Part shown: positions 17,680 to 60,848 of the stretch, in pieces
How the letters are laid out: every line of letters begins with the position of its first letter
Numbering within the stretch: position 1 is the stretch's first letter
From: Apostichopus japonicus
Lineage: Eukaryota; Echinodermata; Holothuroidea; Aspidochirotida; Stichopodidae
DNA: 64,000 bases
Direction of reading: 5' to 3'
Assembly (NCBI RefSeq): GCF_037975245.1
Contig: NC_092569.1
Location: 25,991,168 to 26,055,167 of the forward strand
The notes under the pieces: model-generated
The model's database searches: none
Told to the model about the DNA's origin: nothing
What the model saw: the letters and a program-made list of their open reading frames with translations, nothing else
Translations under genes and position numbers: made by a program

Positions 17680-19170
17680 AGGAGTTTGCCTTATTAAGAG
17701 CATGATGCTTCTTAAGCTTTCCTCCTCATTCCTATCTCCATCTTAAAAATCCCTTCTGCAACCAACCCCCCCCCCACCCCACCCCACCCACAGTTCATTC
17801 TTCTTTCTTTTCGTCAGTTTGAAATATTTGGGAAGATTTGTAGGTGTAAATATTAATTCATAGTACTTATCTAGCAACGCAGACAATTAAAGTATGTACT
17901 TATTTAATATGATAACACAGCTGGCAGCAATTCGAAACAGTGTTGATATTTGAATGAGCCTAGTCTGCAAGGATAGTTGTTATTCGAGACGTAAATAATA
18001 TATTAAAATTGACCAGCATGTGGCCACTTAGGTCCTCAAGAGTGTCATTGTATTTTATAATTCGCTTATTAATTTAATTATCCATTTTTTTCGATCTTGA
18101 TTTCTGTTTTTGTAAGTACATTTCTGTTGATTATGGATTGGAGAATCTGATAATTTATCTTCTTACATAAATGATTTCAGGTGTATTACAACTATCGTGA
18201 TTGGCTTATCGTTAAGCTTCCATTTATGTTATACATATATGTAAAAAAAAAAGGAAATTTTATTTACAAATGGATAAAAATTACGAACAGCGTACAATTT
18301 GAAATAAAACTGAGAAATATGGCTATCCTGTTTCTAATGTAATCATTCTATTCATTAATTATGCCGCAGAGCATTAGCCCCGACGAAGTGATGACGTCAT
18401 CATTTCCACCCAGTGTCATTTTATCTGTTAAGGACCAGTTAGCCGTATGAAGATATGGATTGGACCAACTGTCTCTTAATACGTATTGAGCTTAACGTAT
18501 TATTATATGGTTTTTAGCCATAGACTTCGTTAAACTATTTAACAGGAAAAGAAATCATTACAGAAGTAAAATCAAAATACAAACACTGCAGCTAAGTCTC
18601 CCGTTATGATGAAGGGGAAGGGAAGCTTGAAGTCGTGAGTCTGCATGGAACTTCAAAAAAACTACGTTAATCTTGAACAAAGAAGTCCTATACGTTTAAT
18701 GTCTATACACACCACAGAAGTGCCATTTCTATGTAAACGATTTGGCAGGATGAAAATCTCCATGTTTAATTGAATATATGCATGGCCGCCAGTAAGCTAT
18801 ATATAGACCTGTATCTCACAGACCATACATGCTACTAAGGAATACTGTTTCGTGGTTTCATGCATACCTTTACAGGGGCCCATTTCTCCGTTGACATTTT
18901 GTTACGGAGAGGTGTGCAAACATAGCCTGCTCGCCCCCCCCCCCCGCCCTTACAGATGGCACTTTTACAACGGCAGTGGTTTTTGTTATATTTTTCAAAC
19001 TAACATGTGGGGAGTTCAATAACAACTTGAAATTTGAATAGCAGTGTCTTCGGACATTATGAAACCATATTTGGTCACGTGGCGTATGGAAAGACAGAAA
19101 TCACGAGACGATCAGGATTCAGAACTAATTTCATCGAATTGTTCTGTAACTTATTCACTGACTGAATTAA
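17680..19170. other. AT-rich intergenic DNA between RB1CC1 and the satellite
   Basis: I see no gene, RNA or element with clear ends. There are C-runs at 17767 and 18936 and a possible poly(A) signal AATAAA at 18303-18308. Confidence 0.5.
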
Positions 19171-21651
19171 CAGACAAATGTCTACACTTGTGTATGTAAA
19201 CTAGAGTAGTAAAGAGAGAAAAGCCTTGTTTATATTTGAAACATACAAGTCACTACACTTGTGTATATAAAGTAGAGCAGTAAAGAGAGAAAAGCCTTGT
19301 TTATATTAGAAACAGACAAGTCTCTACACTTGTGTATATAAAGTAGAGCAGTAAAGAGAGAAAAGCCTTTTTTATATTGGAAACAGACAAGTCTCTACAC
19401 TTGTGTATATAAACTAGAGCAGCAAAGAAAGACAAGCCTTGTTTATATTAGAAACAGACAATTCTCTACACTTGTGTATATAAAGTAGAGCATTAAGAGA
19501 GAAATCCTTGTTTATACTGAAAACAGACAAGTCTCTACACCTGTGTATATAAACTAGAGTAGCAAAGAGAGTAAAGCCTTGTTTATATTTGAAACAGACA
19601 AGTCTCTACACTTGTGTATATAAAGTAGAGTATAGTAAAGAGAGAAAAGCCTTGTTTATATTGGAAACAGACAATTCTCAACCCTTGTGTATATAAACTA
19701 GAGCAGCAAAGAAAGACAAGCCTTGTTTATATTTGAAACAGGCAATTCTCTACACTTGTGTATATAAAGTAGAGCATTAAGAGAGAAATCCTTGTTTATA
19801 TTGAAAACAGACAAGTCTCTACACCTGTGTATATAAACTAGAGTAGCAAAGAGAGTAAAGCCTTGTTTATATTTGAAACAGACAAGTCTCTACACTTGTG
19901 TATATAAAGTAGAGTATAGTAAAGAGAGAAAAGCCTTGTTTATATTGGAAACAGACAAGTCTCTACACCTGTGTATATAAAGTAGAGCATTAAAGAGAGA
20001 AAAGCCTTGTTTATATTAGAAACAGACAAGTCTCTACACTTGTGTATATAAAGTAGAGCAGTAAAGAGAGAAAAGCCTTGTTTATATTGGAAACAGACAA
20101 GTCTCTACACTTGTGTATATAAACTAGAGCAGCAAAGAAAGACAAGCCTTGTTTATATTTGAAACAGACAATTCTCTACACTTGTGTATATAAAGTAGAG
20201 CATTAAGAGAGAAATCCTTGTTTATACTGAAAACAGACAAGTCTCTACACCTGTGTATATAAACTAGAGTAGCAAAGAGAGTAAAGCCTTGTTTATATTT
20301 GAAACAGACAAGTCTCTACACTTGTGTATATAAAGTAGAGTATAGTAAAGAGAGAAAAGCCTTGTTTATATTGGAAACAGACAATTCTCAACCCTTGTGT
20401 ATATAAACTAGAGCAGCAAAGAAAGACAAGCCTTGTTTATATTTGAAACAGGCAATTCTCTACACTTGTGTATATAAAGTAGAGCATTAAGAGAGAAATC
20501 CTTGTTTATATTGAAAACAGACAAGTCTCTACACCTGTGTATATAAACTAGAGTAGCAAAGAGAGTAAAGCCTTGTTTATATTTGAAACAGACAAGTCTC
20601 TACACTTGTGTATATAAAGTAGAGTATAGTAAAGAGAGAAAAGCCTTGTTTATATTGGAAACAGACAAGTCTCTACACCTGTGTATATAAAGTAGAGCAT
20701 TAAAGAGAGAAAAGCCTTGTTTATATTAGAAACAGACAAGTCTCTACACCTGTGTATATAAAGTAGAGCATTAAGAGAGAAATCCTTGTTTATATTTGAA
20801 ACAGACAATTCTCTACACCTGTGTATATAAACTAGAGCAGCAAAGAAAGACAAGCCTTGTTTATATTTGAAACAGACAATTCTCTACACCTGTGTATATA
20901 AAGTAGAGCATTAAAGAGAGAAATCCTTGTTTATATTTGAAACAGACAATTCTCTACACCTGTGTATATAAACTAGAGCAGCAAAGAAAGACAAGCCTTG
21001 TTTATATTTGAAACAGACAAGTCTCTACACTTGTGTATATAAAGTAGAGTATAGTAAAGAGAGAAAAGCCTTGTTTATATTGGAAACAGACAATTCTCAA
21101 CCCTTGTGTATATAAACTAGAGCAGCAAAGAAAGACAAGCCTTGTTTATATTTGAAACAGGCAATTCTCTACACTTGTGTATATAAAGTAGAGCATTAAG
21201 AGAGAAATCCTTGTTTATATTGAAAACAGACAAGTCTCTACACCTGTGTATATAAACTAGAGTAGCAAAGAGAGTAAAGCCTTGTTTATATTTGAAACAG
21301 ACAAGTCTCTACACTTGTGTATATAAAGTAGAGTATAGTAAAGAGAGAAAAGCCTTGTTTATATTGGAAACAGACAAGTCTCTACACCTGTGTATATAAA
21401 GTAGAGCATTAAAGAGAGAAAAGCCTTGTTTATATTAGAAACAGACAAGTCTCTACACCTGTGTATATAAAGTAGAGCATTAAGAGAGAAATCCTTGTTT
21501 ATATTTGAAACAGACAATTCTCTACACCTGTGTATATAAACTAGAGCAGCAAAGAAAGACAAGCCTTGTTTATATTTGAAACAGACAATTCTCTACACTT
21601 GTGTATATAAAGTAGAGCAGCGAAGAGAGAACAGTCTTGTTTACATTTGAA
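19171..21651. repeat. 71-bp satellite array with about 709-bp higher-order units
   Basis: About 35 monomers of about 71 bp (range 69-76) contain TCTCTACACTTGTGTATATA, then AAGTAGAGCAGTAAAGAGAG and CCTTGTTTATATT. Variant monomers recur in order: the marker AGGCAATTCTC occurs near 19740, 20450 and 21160, so blocks of about ten monomers repeat about every 709 bp. Within a monomer CTCTAC and GTAGAG can pair as a small hairpin around a TATATA loop. Short open frames such as the identical ones at 20650-20853 and 21359-21562 (minus) are by-products. Confidence 0.92.
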
Positions 21652-21719
21652 TCCTCGAGGGCGATCAAGATCGTAGTCGCGTGGACTCAGTATCAAACAA
21701 TGTAATCATGAGTCTCCCT

Positions 21720-21911
21720 ATCGCTTCTCCGCCTTTTGGCTAAGATCATGTGTAGTATCTGTTCTTTCAGGGAATGGTGATACACACCTGACGATGATCA
21801 CACAGTCACAGTCCCGATGCAAGGGGACTGGGGTTAGAAGCGGATCAGTCGTTCAGTAGTTTGGTTTTCGTGCCCAGGTTCTTTCCTGGGCGACTTTTTC
21901 TTAAAAAAAGT
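21720..21911 (+). mobile_element. Retroposon with U2 snRNA-derived 5' head (copy 1, full length)
   Basis: The element starts at ATCGCTTCTC, the exact 5' end of U2 snRNA, and follows U2 for about 46 nt (CCTTTTGGCTAAGATCATGT, GTAGTATCTGTTCTT) with about two or three changes. It then continues into an unrelated body. The body holds two 7-bp stem-loops (CAGTCCC/GGGACTG at 21809-21830; GCCCAGG/CCTGGGC at 21872-21891), a T-run and a short A-rich end. A direct repeat ATCATGAGTCTCCCTATCG flanks it (21705-21723 and 21912-21930); its last four bases coincide with the first four of the element. It is not a U2 gene, because the branch-site and Sm regions of U2 are absent. Confidence 0.88.
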
Positions 21912-21930
21912 ATCATGAGTCTCCCTATCG

Positions 21931-23030
21931 AGTAGGAGCCTGACCTAGCAAGCGATGATCTAGATGGTGGTAATGTGGACGCTTAGGGGATCAATTACCC
22001 TAGATCTCAGGTTATACTTTAGCCTACCTCGTCACTTCTGCATACACTGGCAGAGAAGTATAATATACGAATACACAGAACAAAGCCCTCGCAGTGCGGA
22101 ATTGTAAACAATCATTGAGGCCCTTGTCGTGATTGCGTAGTATTCTGTTTGTTGTTGTTCCAACCATGTGGACGATTACGAAGTACCGCTTTATTACCTC
22201 TCTCCTGGGAAAAGAAAACAGAATACTGATGTTCCTTGCGGTGTCAAATGTGAAGAAGACTGAATCTTTCAATACGAGGAAAGACAAGATACTACTCCAG
22301 CCAATCCCAACGCTATATCTTGACCAATCAAAATGCAATATCACTGAGTTACTCCTTCTTGGTAAAACTTCTTTTCTCTTTTCAAATTGTGATAAACCCC
22401 AGTTCTGTTCTTCTGTTGTTGATTTACTTGGAAATGAAACAAGGAAACACCGGCATATTCATATGTACATGCAATGTGTGAGAAATACAGTGCATATTCC
22501 ATTGTTAATTTAGGAATGTTGTCACCAAAGATTGTTAGCAAAGTTATTGTAGTCTGCAACCGCAGGTTGCTTTCAAGTTGCCATTGCAGGTGTTGGGTTG
22601 CGGTGTTTTTTGTTTTGTTTTTTCTCTGATCAGGCCATCTAATAACCGCACATTATTGGATTGCCCTCAATCCAACTACCCAACAATATATGGTTACAAC
22701 TAGTCCAGCCCTCATAAAATCATAGGGAGTTGTAAATCGCAGAAAGCGTATAGCTAGGGTTTGTGGGGTCCTCGATTCAAAAGTAAGAGTTGTGACCTTT
22801 AAAACTAGCTTCATTTAGACTGCTCCTGGCCCAAGTTCATAGATGTAACATTACAGGAAGGGCACCGTGATAGAATTGGTATTGAACCGGATAGTGAATT
22901 TTTCAACGAAAAAAAAACAACAGTTGCTTGTGGAATAGAAACAAAAAAGGGTACAGAGATGTTGGTAGTATGTCAAGTATCCATGCAAAAACATGACTGG
23001 CATGCAGTTGTGATCCCTTGGCTCGAAACA
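21931..23030. other. Spacer between the two U2-headed retroposons
   Basis: AT-rich unique sequence. Open frames on both strands (22024-22344 minus, 22133-22513 plus) overlap each other and show no family motif or splice context. No other feature is seen. Confidence 0.5.
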
Positions 23031-23042
23031 ATTTTCAGCGCC

Positions 23043-23205
23043 TTTTGGCTAAGATAATGTGTAGTATCTGTTCAATCTCGAGGTGAATGGTGCACACACA
23101 GTCACAGTCCCGATGCAAAGGGACTGGGGTTGAGAGCGGATCAGTCGTTCGGTAGTTGGGTTTTCGTGCCCAGGTTCTTTCCTGGGCGACTTTTTCTTAA
23201 AAAGT
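23043..23205 (+). mobile_element. Retroposon with U2 snRNA-derived head (copy 2, 5'-truncated)
   Basis: The same element as at 21720. It starts inside the U2 head at CGCC/TTTTGGCTAAGATAATG and keeps GTGTAGTATCTGTTC, both stem-loops (23105-23126, 23168-23187), the T-run and the A-rich end. The direct repeat ATTTTCAGCGCC flanks it (23031-23042 and 23206-23217), and its last four bases overlap the element. The different flanking duplication shows an independent insertion. The copy lacks about ten bases of the head and has a deletion after the head compared with copy 1. Confidence 0.88.
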
Positions 23206-23217
23206 ATTTTCAGCGCC

Positions 23218-42480: not shown

Positions 42481-42483
42481 AGG

Positions 42484-42540
42484 TCGATGTATCCTTTCCT
42501 TGCTAAGGTTAGCTTATAAGGAGGTTTGACTAATACTTGA

Positions 42541-42576
<36 letters not shown>

Positions 42577-42599: not shown

Positions 42600-42739
42600 A
42601 ACACACCAGAAAAATTCCACTTCACGACCGGTTTCGTCCTTTTGGGACTCATCAGGCGAAGGTAGGAATCGAACCCCGGAGCTTCGTGTCACGAACCTAA
42701 GCCCGTACCACTCGACCACAGTGATTCTACTGGTGTGTT
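42600..42739 (-). mobile_element. Short element with tRNA-like region and hammerhead ribozyme
   Basis: The element is bounded by inverted repeats AACACACCAG (42600-42609) and CTGGTGTGTT (42730-42739). On the minus strand the 5' half has an A box (GGTCGAGTGGTACGGGC) and a B box (GGGTTCGATTCC), as in a tRNA-derived SINE head. The 3' half carries a hammerhead ribozyme (see the separate entry). No coding capacity. It lies between two TA tracts and the open state of the motif suggests a recent or selected copy. Whether it moves as a SINE, a retrozyme or part of a Penelope-like element cannot be decided here. Confidence 0.75.
42621..42660 (-). ncRNA. Type I hammerhead self-cleaving ribozyme motif
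   Basis: On the minus strand: stem I 5' strand TTCGC (42660-42656), catalytic core CTGATGA (42655-42649), stem II GTCC/GGAC with loop CAAAA (42648-42636), GAAA (42635-42632), stem III formed by A-CCGG-T, then TC with cleavage predicted after C at 42626, and the stem I 3' strand GTGAA (42625-42621). All core nucleotides of the family are present. Stem III has no loop, as in known animal type I hammerheads that work best as dimers. Confidence 0.85.
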
Positions 42740-44335: not shown

Positions 44336-44423
44336 CTCCCACGATTTGAGACTGATGGCCCGCCATATCGGCGGAGTCCAAATCATCTTCGGTTTCAGTT
44401 GTCCAGTACAGGAGTTTCGTTGT

Positions 44424-44532
44424 CGATGCATCCTTTCCTTGCAAAGGTTAACTTATAAGGAGGTTTGACTAATAATTGATTCAGTCAATTCTTTTATGTT
44501 TATATAAATATATAAATATATATATATATATG

Positions 44533-57909: not shown

Positions 57910-60848
57910 AACTATCGTTTCATATCACAAAAACAATATCTAGGCATGTGTCTCAATCCCTTTGGTATACAAATATCGCAAAGGTTGATCAGAACACCGA
58001 ATTTTGTTATGCAGTCTTTATCATTCCAGAGAAATGCTTTTTTTTCTATACATGTCGGTATGTTGTATAAGTTTGAATATGACAAGAAATTATCATTTTT
58101 TCATTTTAATGTAAAAAAAATTGCTGTTATAGTTGCATATAGGCCTACAGCTATTTCAAACCTCAAGAACTTTTTCAGGGTGCTTGATAATTTGCCGATG
58201 CTCGCTGTATATAGGCAATTACAATGGCTTTATATAACCTGTATGCTGTGAAATGTCAAACGAACATGACAATAGAATAAGGAACTCTTTGCTGATAGGG
58301 CCACTCAAAGCAAATGACTGTTGCGTGTGAGGGGAATGAACAGGATTATGGCTCAACAAGGAAATAGGGGACCGCTTTTGGGAGTCAGCTATTCTTATAT
58401 CAGACTTGATGTGTTGTGATTTCAAATTGATTTCTTTCCCGATGTGACCTACACGGAAATATCAAACCACCTACGAAATTTGTGAAGGTTTTTTGACGCA
58501 GTCTTCATATTTGGTTGGTGAAAAACAGCATTTTAAATCCGACGAAAAATATCATCAAATGTACCAACATGCCCCCTTTTAATGTGTCACATGTACCCGA
58601 TCATGGTTTTAAATAGCTACTCCTCAATTCCTTCGTTCTTCTATCATGCACTTGAATCGGATTTTTTTTTTTTTTTTTTTGCGCTATACATTGTTAGAAC
58701 GATGGGTCAACGTTTCAGAATTCTACCTATGAATTAAGGAGCTAACCTCATATAGGTATCATTTTGAAGGGAGCTTATTTTATACGGAATTACGCCACGG
58801 ACAGGCTCAGAATGATCGAATTATGAAATAATAGACATATTCGTGTTCAAATTCACTCATGTCAAAAAAATCACCAAAAACTACTTTTTTTCCTTTTTTT
58901 TAAGGAGATGAAGTCATAATTTTTGTATCTAGAAAAGGATTAAAAATTATAGAAAAGTATACCATTATAGACCATGTATATATATATATAAGGTACATAT
59001 GAAATATAGTATATATTACATAAACGTCATACTAAAACAGTGACGTCAGCAAGAATCCGCCTATTCTATATGAGTAGAAATCTTCCTTTGACATTATATT
59101 CTCAAACATTTTCGTCCGTACCGTTACCCGTATTCACGGATTGTTGCTCGTATATACTCGGACTCACAACGTTTGGTGTTGTTGCCTCGCCCATAATCGA
59201 ACTTGTCATTATTAAGTTATGCAAGAAACTTCCCTGTACTGTTTTTCTCGCTTTTTGTTTCTTTGTTAACGACTTATACTAATTTCTACTTTACAAAGAC
59301 AAAAAAAACAACAAAAAAAAACACAACGCACATGTAAATTCTGTTTTGTCACTATACAGATTGCGCACACGGCAATAAAGGCGAGGCGCTTCCAGTTATT
59401 ACAAGGCCTGTAATTATTTATCATCGCCTGTTGAGCACACATATACAAAAAAAAATATGTGTTCTAGGAAAGGCTTCCAAATAACGCGGGCTTTTCTGCC
59501 AGAATATGAAATAAAGCCTCATTCGCCCCAAAATATAATTGCAATATCATGCCTGGCAAAAACGAAGAGTTCGCCGTACCCAAACACGAACAACAACAAC
59601 ATGGTTCAGCAGTCTAAATCCAAGTTATGGTACTTCAACAAATGAGTCCACAAGAACCACTGTGAATAATTCATTCTAAAGTTTTTAATTTGTCCATTCT
59701 AAACCCCCCCCCCCCCCGATTGATTTAGGTCGGGGAAATAACCTTTAGGGAAGGAGTAGAGGCAGATCAAGGATTTTACAAAATAGGGGATGTGACCCTG
59801 GAACCCCTGCATCAAGCCGACCTCCACGGAACCCCTCCACCTCCTCCACTCCCACCCCCTACCCTCCCCCACTTGCTCATACCACTAAATAATGTATATT
59901 GCATAACTTATAGGAGTTACTAATACTTTAAAATAATAAATTTCTCGTGTTTTTTCTAAGTTCACTCATTTAATATATGTGTTGTAACCCACCTTCCATC
60001 TACTGGTAAAACACCGTAAAATGACTTTCCAAAACCTCATTTGAAAGGGAATGACTTTTCAAGTCTTCACGACACGGTTTTGAGCGATTAAAGTATATCA
60101 TTAAAATATAGTATTATTTGGGAGCTCTCTTGCTTTTTGTTTAATCATTCTGTCTTATCCGGGATACACCATGTGATATAAGTTTGACGCATCCGTCATT
60201 TGACGAGGAAGTATCAAGCCGTGTTTGAAAGTAAAATGTTATACCGCATTTTTCATGACTCCGCTTACAGTGCAAAAAAAACCTTATATACAAATATATG
60301 AGTTAACACCTTCATTTGACAAGTGTCACGATAATGGTTATCTACAAAAGCGAAGAAAACAAACAGTACTATCAAAAGTATTGATCAAAGGACAAGCTTA
60401 AAATAGCACCCATGCAGCTACGACAATGATTGTCAAGCAAGCTATGATAAATGCAGTTATGCATGGAAACATATACTATAGTAGCACTTGGTTATGAAAA
60501 CGTGACGCGTAGTCTTGATTAGAAACTATTTTACTAAGTATATATGGCGATGTTTAATTTAGCGGCGTGAATTTGTTTATAGATGATATGGAATATTGCA
60601 AGCCTTACAATAGAGGAGGGTCAAATGTAAGACGACATCCCAGGGACCCTGGGTCAATTACGGGGCCCTGTAACTATTTGGGATAAAGAATACTATTCTC
60701 ATTTTTATAATATGTATACTTGAGGGGGGAATGCAGATTTCCAAAATAGGGGCCCATATCTGTCCATGTGGACCGACAATAAGGCCCCTACCATAGATTT
60801 GGCTCCCTGCTTGGTTCTGGTGTAGATAATCGATACACTGTAGTATGT

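Follow-up and report, generated by a model that had tools for sequence, protein, structure and literature searches.

Two short retroposons, each headed by the 5′-part of U2 snRNA, lie in the window, by which we mean the whole 64,000-nucleotide stretch of Apostichopus japonicus DNA analysed here (contig C9; GC content 38.3%; Table 1); the genome searched comprises 671.58 Mb in 35 contigs. The head of copy 1 starts at U2 nucleotide (nt) 1 and that of copy 2 at nt 12, and both match the genome's own U2, of which the variant GATCATGTGTAG is also present in the head of copy 1. In copy 1 the first four nucleotides of the head fall within the duplication too, and the match to U2 continues to nt 48. 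The interval 21720-21814 of copy 1 scores 53.6 bits with the Rfam U2 model, against a gathering score of 46, and copy 2 stays below that gathering score. Behind their heads the copies share a body and a 3′-end unrelated to U2 (94% identity over 109 nt, ungapped), and the fold of the family consensus predicts terminal hairpins, GCCCAGG..CCTGGGC and ACTTTTT..AAAAAGT, for the 3′-part of copy 1. Each copy has a separate direct repeat (19 bp and 12 bp), and both show the anatomy of products of target-primed reverse transcription (TPRT). The first-pass annotation, made from the window alone, had described the pair in these terms, as independent insertions with U2 heads and a common body, and the description stands.

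Table 1. Features of the two U2-headed copies (positions in the window)
Feature	Positions	Strand	Remarks
Copy 1, 5′ target-site duplication, 19 bp	21705..21723	+	Same as 21912-21930
Copy 1, head, U2 nt 1-45	21720..21764	+	One mismatch, nt 11
Copy 1, variable junction TTTCAGGGAATGG, body, A-run and GT	21765..21911	+	
Copy 1, 3′ target-site duplication, 19 bp	21912..21930	+	
Copy 2, 5′ target-site duplication ATTTTCAGCGCC, 12 bp	23031..23042	+	Last 3 nt common to head; same as 23206-23217
Copy 2, 5′-truncated head, U2 nt 12-45	23040..23073	+	One mismatch, nt 28
Copy 2, junction AATCTCGAGGTGAATGG, body with internal deletion, A-run and GT	23074..23205	+	Junction unlike that of copy 1
Copy 2, 3′ target-site duplication, 12 bp	23206..23217	+	

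The window holds further repeats. About 35 copies of a 71-bp satellite occupy positions 19169-21651 and stop about 54 bp ahead of the duplication of copy 1, and a 53-bp minisatellite (17.6 copies) lies at 1420-2340. A type I hammerhead ribozyme (38.8 bits) is found on the minus strand at 42620-42661, near a 62-nt direct repeat (42483-42544 and 44422-44483, 94%); together they are perhaps a retrozyme- or Penelope-like element. A search of a phage collection gave no match.

The U2-headed SINE family of this invertebrate is real, its members being short, dispersed, repeated and flanked by target-site duplications, and it is young. The 41-nt tail has 151 exact matches in the genome (reversed control, 0) and a 14-nt body word has 813 (reversed control, 4), which disposes of the possibility, raised with the original description, that only the two copies exist. 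DNA searches returned 47 matches in the best 40 of 2521 first-look candidates with copy 1 as the query and 48 in the best 40 of 2388 with the body alone; because scoring covered the best 40 candidates, the copy number is bracketed, at several hundred at least and perhaps about 2500. The published annotation assigns only 159,644 bp of the A. japonicus genome to SINEs (PMC10344927). The dispersed copies considered below come from the 40 top-scoring of the 2521 candidates, a sample that favours young, head-bearing copies, and the head sample excludes 14 full-body sites found only with the body-alone query. A second earlier concern, that the body might be a piece of a longer unrelated repeat, was rejected, since shared flanks are confined to one group of copies and trace to a large palindromic repeat that bears the SINE in both arms. 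This repeat (L061, L062 and L063) is near-perfect, with arms of up to at least 3.4 kb that are over 99% identical, and contains a short open reading frame (ORF) that looks zinc-finger-like by eye. Palindrome-borne copies were collapsed before counting (15 of 37 rows, recognized by flank, kept as one); in the head alignment the group is represented by L006 and rows starting beyond U2 nt 13 are left out, and the target-site count also drops L009 and L014, which belong to the group with changed flanks.

Across 19 independent head-bearing dispersed copies, U2 nt 1-45 differ from U2 at 10 of 791 aligned cells and nt 46-60 at 191 of 285. Unbroken similarity to U2 stops at nt 45 in eight copies, at nt 44 in one and at nt 48-52 in ten, and the break is therefore a zone rather than a point. 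From nt 46 the sequences vary among copies; TTTTCGGGAATGG, TTTCAGGGAATGG, CCTTTCGAGGGGAATGG, CCTTCGGGAATGG and AATCTCGAGGTGAATGG all occur. Heads start at U2 nt 1 in six of the 19 copies and at nt 1-4 in 12. The 3′-end reads AAAAAG(T/A). In 12 of 13 first insertions the A-run is separated from the duplication by G, GT or GTA, and in the remaining one, L012, GTA is the sequence of the target itself. The family consensus folds at -67.2 kcal/mol (z -3.2), and 2 of 200 shuffled sequences fold equally well.

Retroposons with snRNA heads are puzzling because the Pol II promoter of an snRNA gene lies outside the RNA. At L001-L030 no counterpart of the 300 bp that precede U2 was found, nor was one seen by eye at the dispersed copy of L033, and the only match to these 300 bp in the window (59962-59985) has an E-value of 0.069. 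A classical SINE would instead be transcribed by Pol III from an internal promoter, here made up of A-box-like sequence in U2 and B-box-like sequence in the body. The head does contain the A-box-like TGGCTAAGATCA (10 of 12 positions, a count that three other places equal) and the body the B-box-like GTTAGAAGC at consensus position 114 (8 of 9 positions), both counts standing without a computed chance level. However, the consensus carries runs of four to five T residues at positions 15, 46, 146 and 176, which would be expected to stop Pol III, and an RNA that starts at U2 nt 1 fits the start site of U2 itself; we regard a Pol III origin as very improbable.

The same body is present inside U2 genes, behind an intact promoter region, and this is the new observation of the present analysis. 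A search with the Rfam U2 model scored 46 of 40,968 candidates, 42 of them on C16 and four on C15, and the C16 loci largely form one tandem array with a 645-bp unit. Our analysis covers 111,028 bp of this array, leaving out about 35 kb of its span and a joint at 31006763, and this sequence contains 43 full U2 copies, six SINE bodies in five U2 genes and 15 further interrupted U2 5′-parts that end at nt 25-50. In the SINE-bearing units the U2 5′-part ends at nt 45 in three, at about nt 52 in one and at about nt 40 in one, the last of which holds two bodies in a row; two of the U2-hosted bodies are 5′-truncated. These differing 5′-joints and truncated bodies look as they would for separate TPRT events. 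On the other side, U2 picks up again at nt 35-39 behind the insertions, a joint common to the AP-endonuclease (APE)-type LINEs of the same array; the 19 U2 3′-parts found there start at nt 35 (14) or nt 38 (5). The 452 bp upstream of all five SINE-bearing units are identical to those of an intact unit at 450-452 of 452 positions. Exact joints between the SINE tail and U2 number seven in the whole genome (reversed control, 0), six in the C16 array (including that at 31006763) and one on C20. At the C20 locus (L079 and L080; 14906370-14906446 and 14906620-14906680), the tail is joined to diverged U2-like sequence, and two partial U2 heads lie on its 5′-side; this could be an insertion in a U2 pseudogene or could stem from reverse transcription of a U2-SINE-U2 RNA.

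Flanked by the U2 promoter region upstream and the U2 3′-part downstream, the U2-hosted units are candidate source genes, and they suggest both an origin for the head and a way in which such copies could be produced. The first-pass annotation had left the transcription of these elements as an open question, and copies seated in U2 genes behind an intact promoter may now offer a concrete answer. The opposite relation, in which gene conversion from dispersed SINEs into U2 genes made the U2-hosted copies a consequence rather than the source, would draw on the near identity of the head to U2 over 45 nt and on the tendency of U2 arrays to homogenise. It is nevertheless the least probable of the explanations considered, because in the dispersed copies read nothing of U2 follows the body except G, GT or GTA, yet U2 resumes by one joint in all five of the units read, and the 5′-joints of two truncated bodies are different ones.

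The site occupied by the SINE is shared with autonomous elements. Eight of the 15 interrupted U2 5′-parts were extracted, and all proved to be LINE insertions from three families that are 36-51% identical in ORF2; seven are 4.9-5.3 kb long and have open frames of 1038-1162 amino acids, and the eighth measures 658 bp. Three LINE families with long open frames thus occupy one U2 site in one array (e.g., L066, L068 and L072). ORF2 of one of these LINEs matches the Pfam domains Exo_endo_phos and RVT_1, with a zf-RVT match just below the cut-off, and its ORF1 has a CCHC knuckle. With an AP-like endonuclease and a reverse transcriptase (RT) in this LINE, and with insertion in U2 at a 3′-joint as in Keno and Utopia, the U2-hosted LINEs resemble Keno; the downstream joint of Utopia, U2 nt 39, is identical to that of Keno (PMC4640811). 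A homologue search with the LINE ORF2 returned 320 relatives, of which the 120 listed carry no clade names. A partner LINE with the SINE 3′-end, as suggested earlier, was not found among the eight U2-hosted insertions read, from three families (best E-value, 0.79). A separate candidate, the SINE as an internal-deletion derivative of a U2 LINE, was rejected for lack of significant similarity to the same eight sequences.

The position of this site also bears on how the head was acquired. The RT could have jumped from body RNA to U2 snRNA as a template, after which the chimera spread as an ordinary SINE and entered U2 genes later. Jumps of R2 that yield snRNA 5′-ends (U12) are reported (PMC3414825), and the several junction types and the variable head end at nt 44-52 are in keeping with such an event. 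A jump, however, could end anywhere in the 193-nt U2, yet all 19 heads end at nt 44-52, adjoining the site of the U2-hosted copies, and it would leave the promoter unexplained. We therefore consider it unlikely. We prefer to see the head as that portion of a host U2 gene situated 5′ of the site where U2-targeting LINEs insert, rather than as a module captured once. Of the earlier account, the U2-headed family, the independent insertions and the TPRT-like anatomy stand.

Comparison of bodies connects the two sets of copies within one subfamily. Two dispersed copies at L012 and one at L033 show 0-2 differences in 102-129 sites from U2-hosted bodies. Nine columns are informative; one L012 copy agrees with the complete U2-hosted bodies in all of them, and the second L012 copy and that of L033 each depart from them in one. 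The six U2-hosted bodies read are all of a single subfamily, to which three of 21 compared dispersed bodies belong, and a U2-hosted source is accordingly shown for that subfamily only.

The sites of dispersed insertion resemble the U2 target. Among 13 resolved first insertions, 11 fall at A/YY (the slash marks the joint) against a background of 0.069 (binomial 1.2e-11), with A before the joint in 12 and a pyrimidine after it in all 13; U2's own site reads A38/T39C40 and is likewise A/YY. This count drops L017 and L027, where the duplication is unclear, four re-insertions beside an earlier SINE end and one inverted piece without duplication, and skips L026, where the A-run is broken; with L017 and L027 retained it becomes 11 of 15. 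Duplications in three of the 13 rows (L015, L003 and L008) are only 5-6 bp long. At L012, L013 and L008, tandem SINE copies have one common target duplication between them; the bodies of these copies differ, and the arrangement therefore probably arose by repeated insertion at one site. Such re-use of a duplication would be explained by site bias. Crocodilian Utopia likewise keeps U2-like motifs at its off-target joints (PMC4640811).

These observations lead us, with a probability of about 0.8, to read the SINE as a non-autonomous passenger of U2-targeting LINEs that would be transcribed from the U2 promoter, its dispersed copies being off-target products. The SINE body occupies U2 genes at the target site of U2-specific APE-type (Keno-like) LINEs, and the U2 promoter would drive an RNA that runs from U2 nt 1, near which dispersed heads tend to start, through about nt 45, the body and the rest of U2. 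The U2-LINE machinery may then reverse-transcribe this chimeric RNA from the 3′-end of the body, AAAAAG(U). Landing in another U2 gene would create a new promoter-driven copy, and landing at an A/YY site resembling A38/T39C40 of U2 would leave a promoterless U2-headed copy such as the two in the window. The end of the head would correspond to the top-strand break in the host gene, and the body would be the mobile part. Transcription, the direction of copying and the helper LINE are the elements of this scheme that we infer from sequence. It is also tempting to go one step further, and we lean slightly towards the view that the promoter is supplied by the insertion site, that the SINE amplifies only inside U2 genes and that the dispersed copies are dead off-target products.

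If such supply of the promoter by the insertion site is general, snRNA heads such as those of the crocodilian SINEU elements arose likewise, without head capture by template switching. More broadly, the occupied U2 genes point to a testable way in which snRNA-headed SINEs could originate and persist, and they connect a dispersed SINE family with site-specific LINEs. They also call for caution in annotation, because U2 matches in such genomes may be SINE heads.

Among the literature matches listed, none describes a U2-headed SINE in an echinoderm or another invertebrate. The crocodilian SINEU elements are reportedly short retroposons with a head derived from U1 or U2; their heads are said to be recurrent, and the elements to be tied to LINEs of the Tx1 group. 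The sea cucumber SINE is likewise a short retroposon with an snRNA-derived head, from U2. SINEU belongs to another lineage; in the sea cucumber family, copies inside U2 genes behind the promoter are demonstrated. A separate origin from crocodilian SINEU is likely.

The closest parallels to the U2-hosted copies are found among site-specific LINEs and their passengers. Keno, an APE-type U2-targeting LINE, has the same U2 3′-joint as the sea cucumber SINE (PMC4640811). One LINE at that joint in the array has APE and RT domains, and the array LINEs are likened to Keno by domains and joint; unlike Keno, the SINE encodes no LINE-type protein. Utopia is similar in its joint at U2 nt 39 and in the U2-like motifs at its off-target sites and differs in its endonuclease, which is of the RLE type (PMC4640811). 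The R2 SIDEs of Drosophila are non-autonomous passengers that reside, with variable 5′-joints, in the gene targeted by a site-specific LINE (PMC3414825), and the SINE shares this arrangement, since it uses the site at which autonomous LINEs insert and its 5′-joints vary. R2 SIDEs are built from ends of R2 or R2/R1 and have a ribozyme (PMC3414825), whereas the sea cucumber SINE retains host-gene sequence as its head and has dispersed copies. By this analogy, the SINE would work like a passenger of the R2-SIDE type that leaks out of its target gene, and the family is a variant of the snRNA-headed SINEs with candidate source genes in place.
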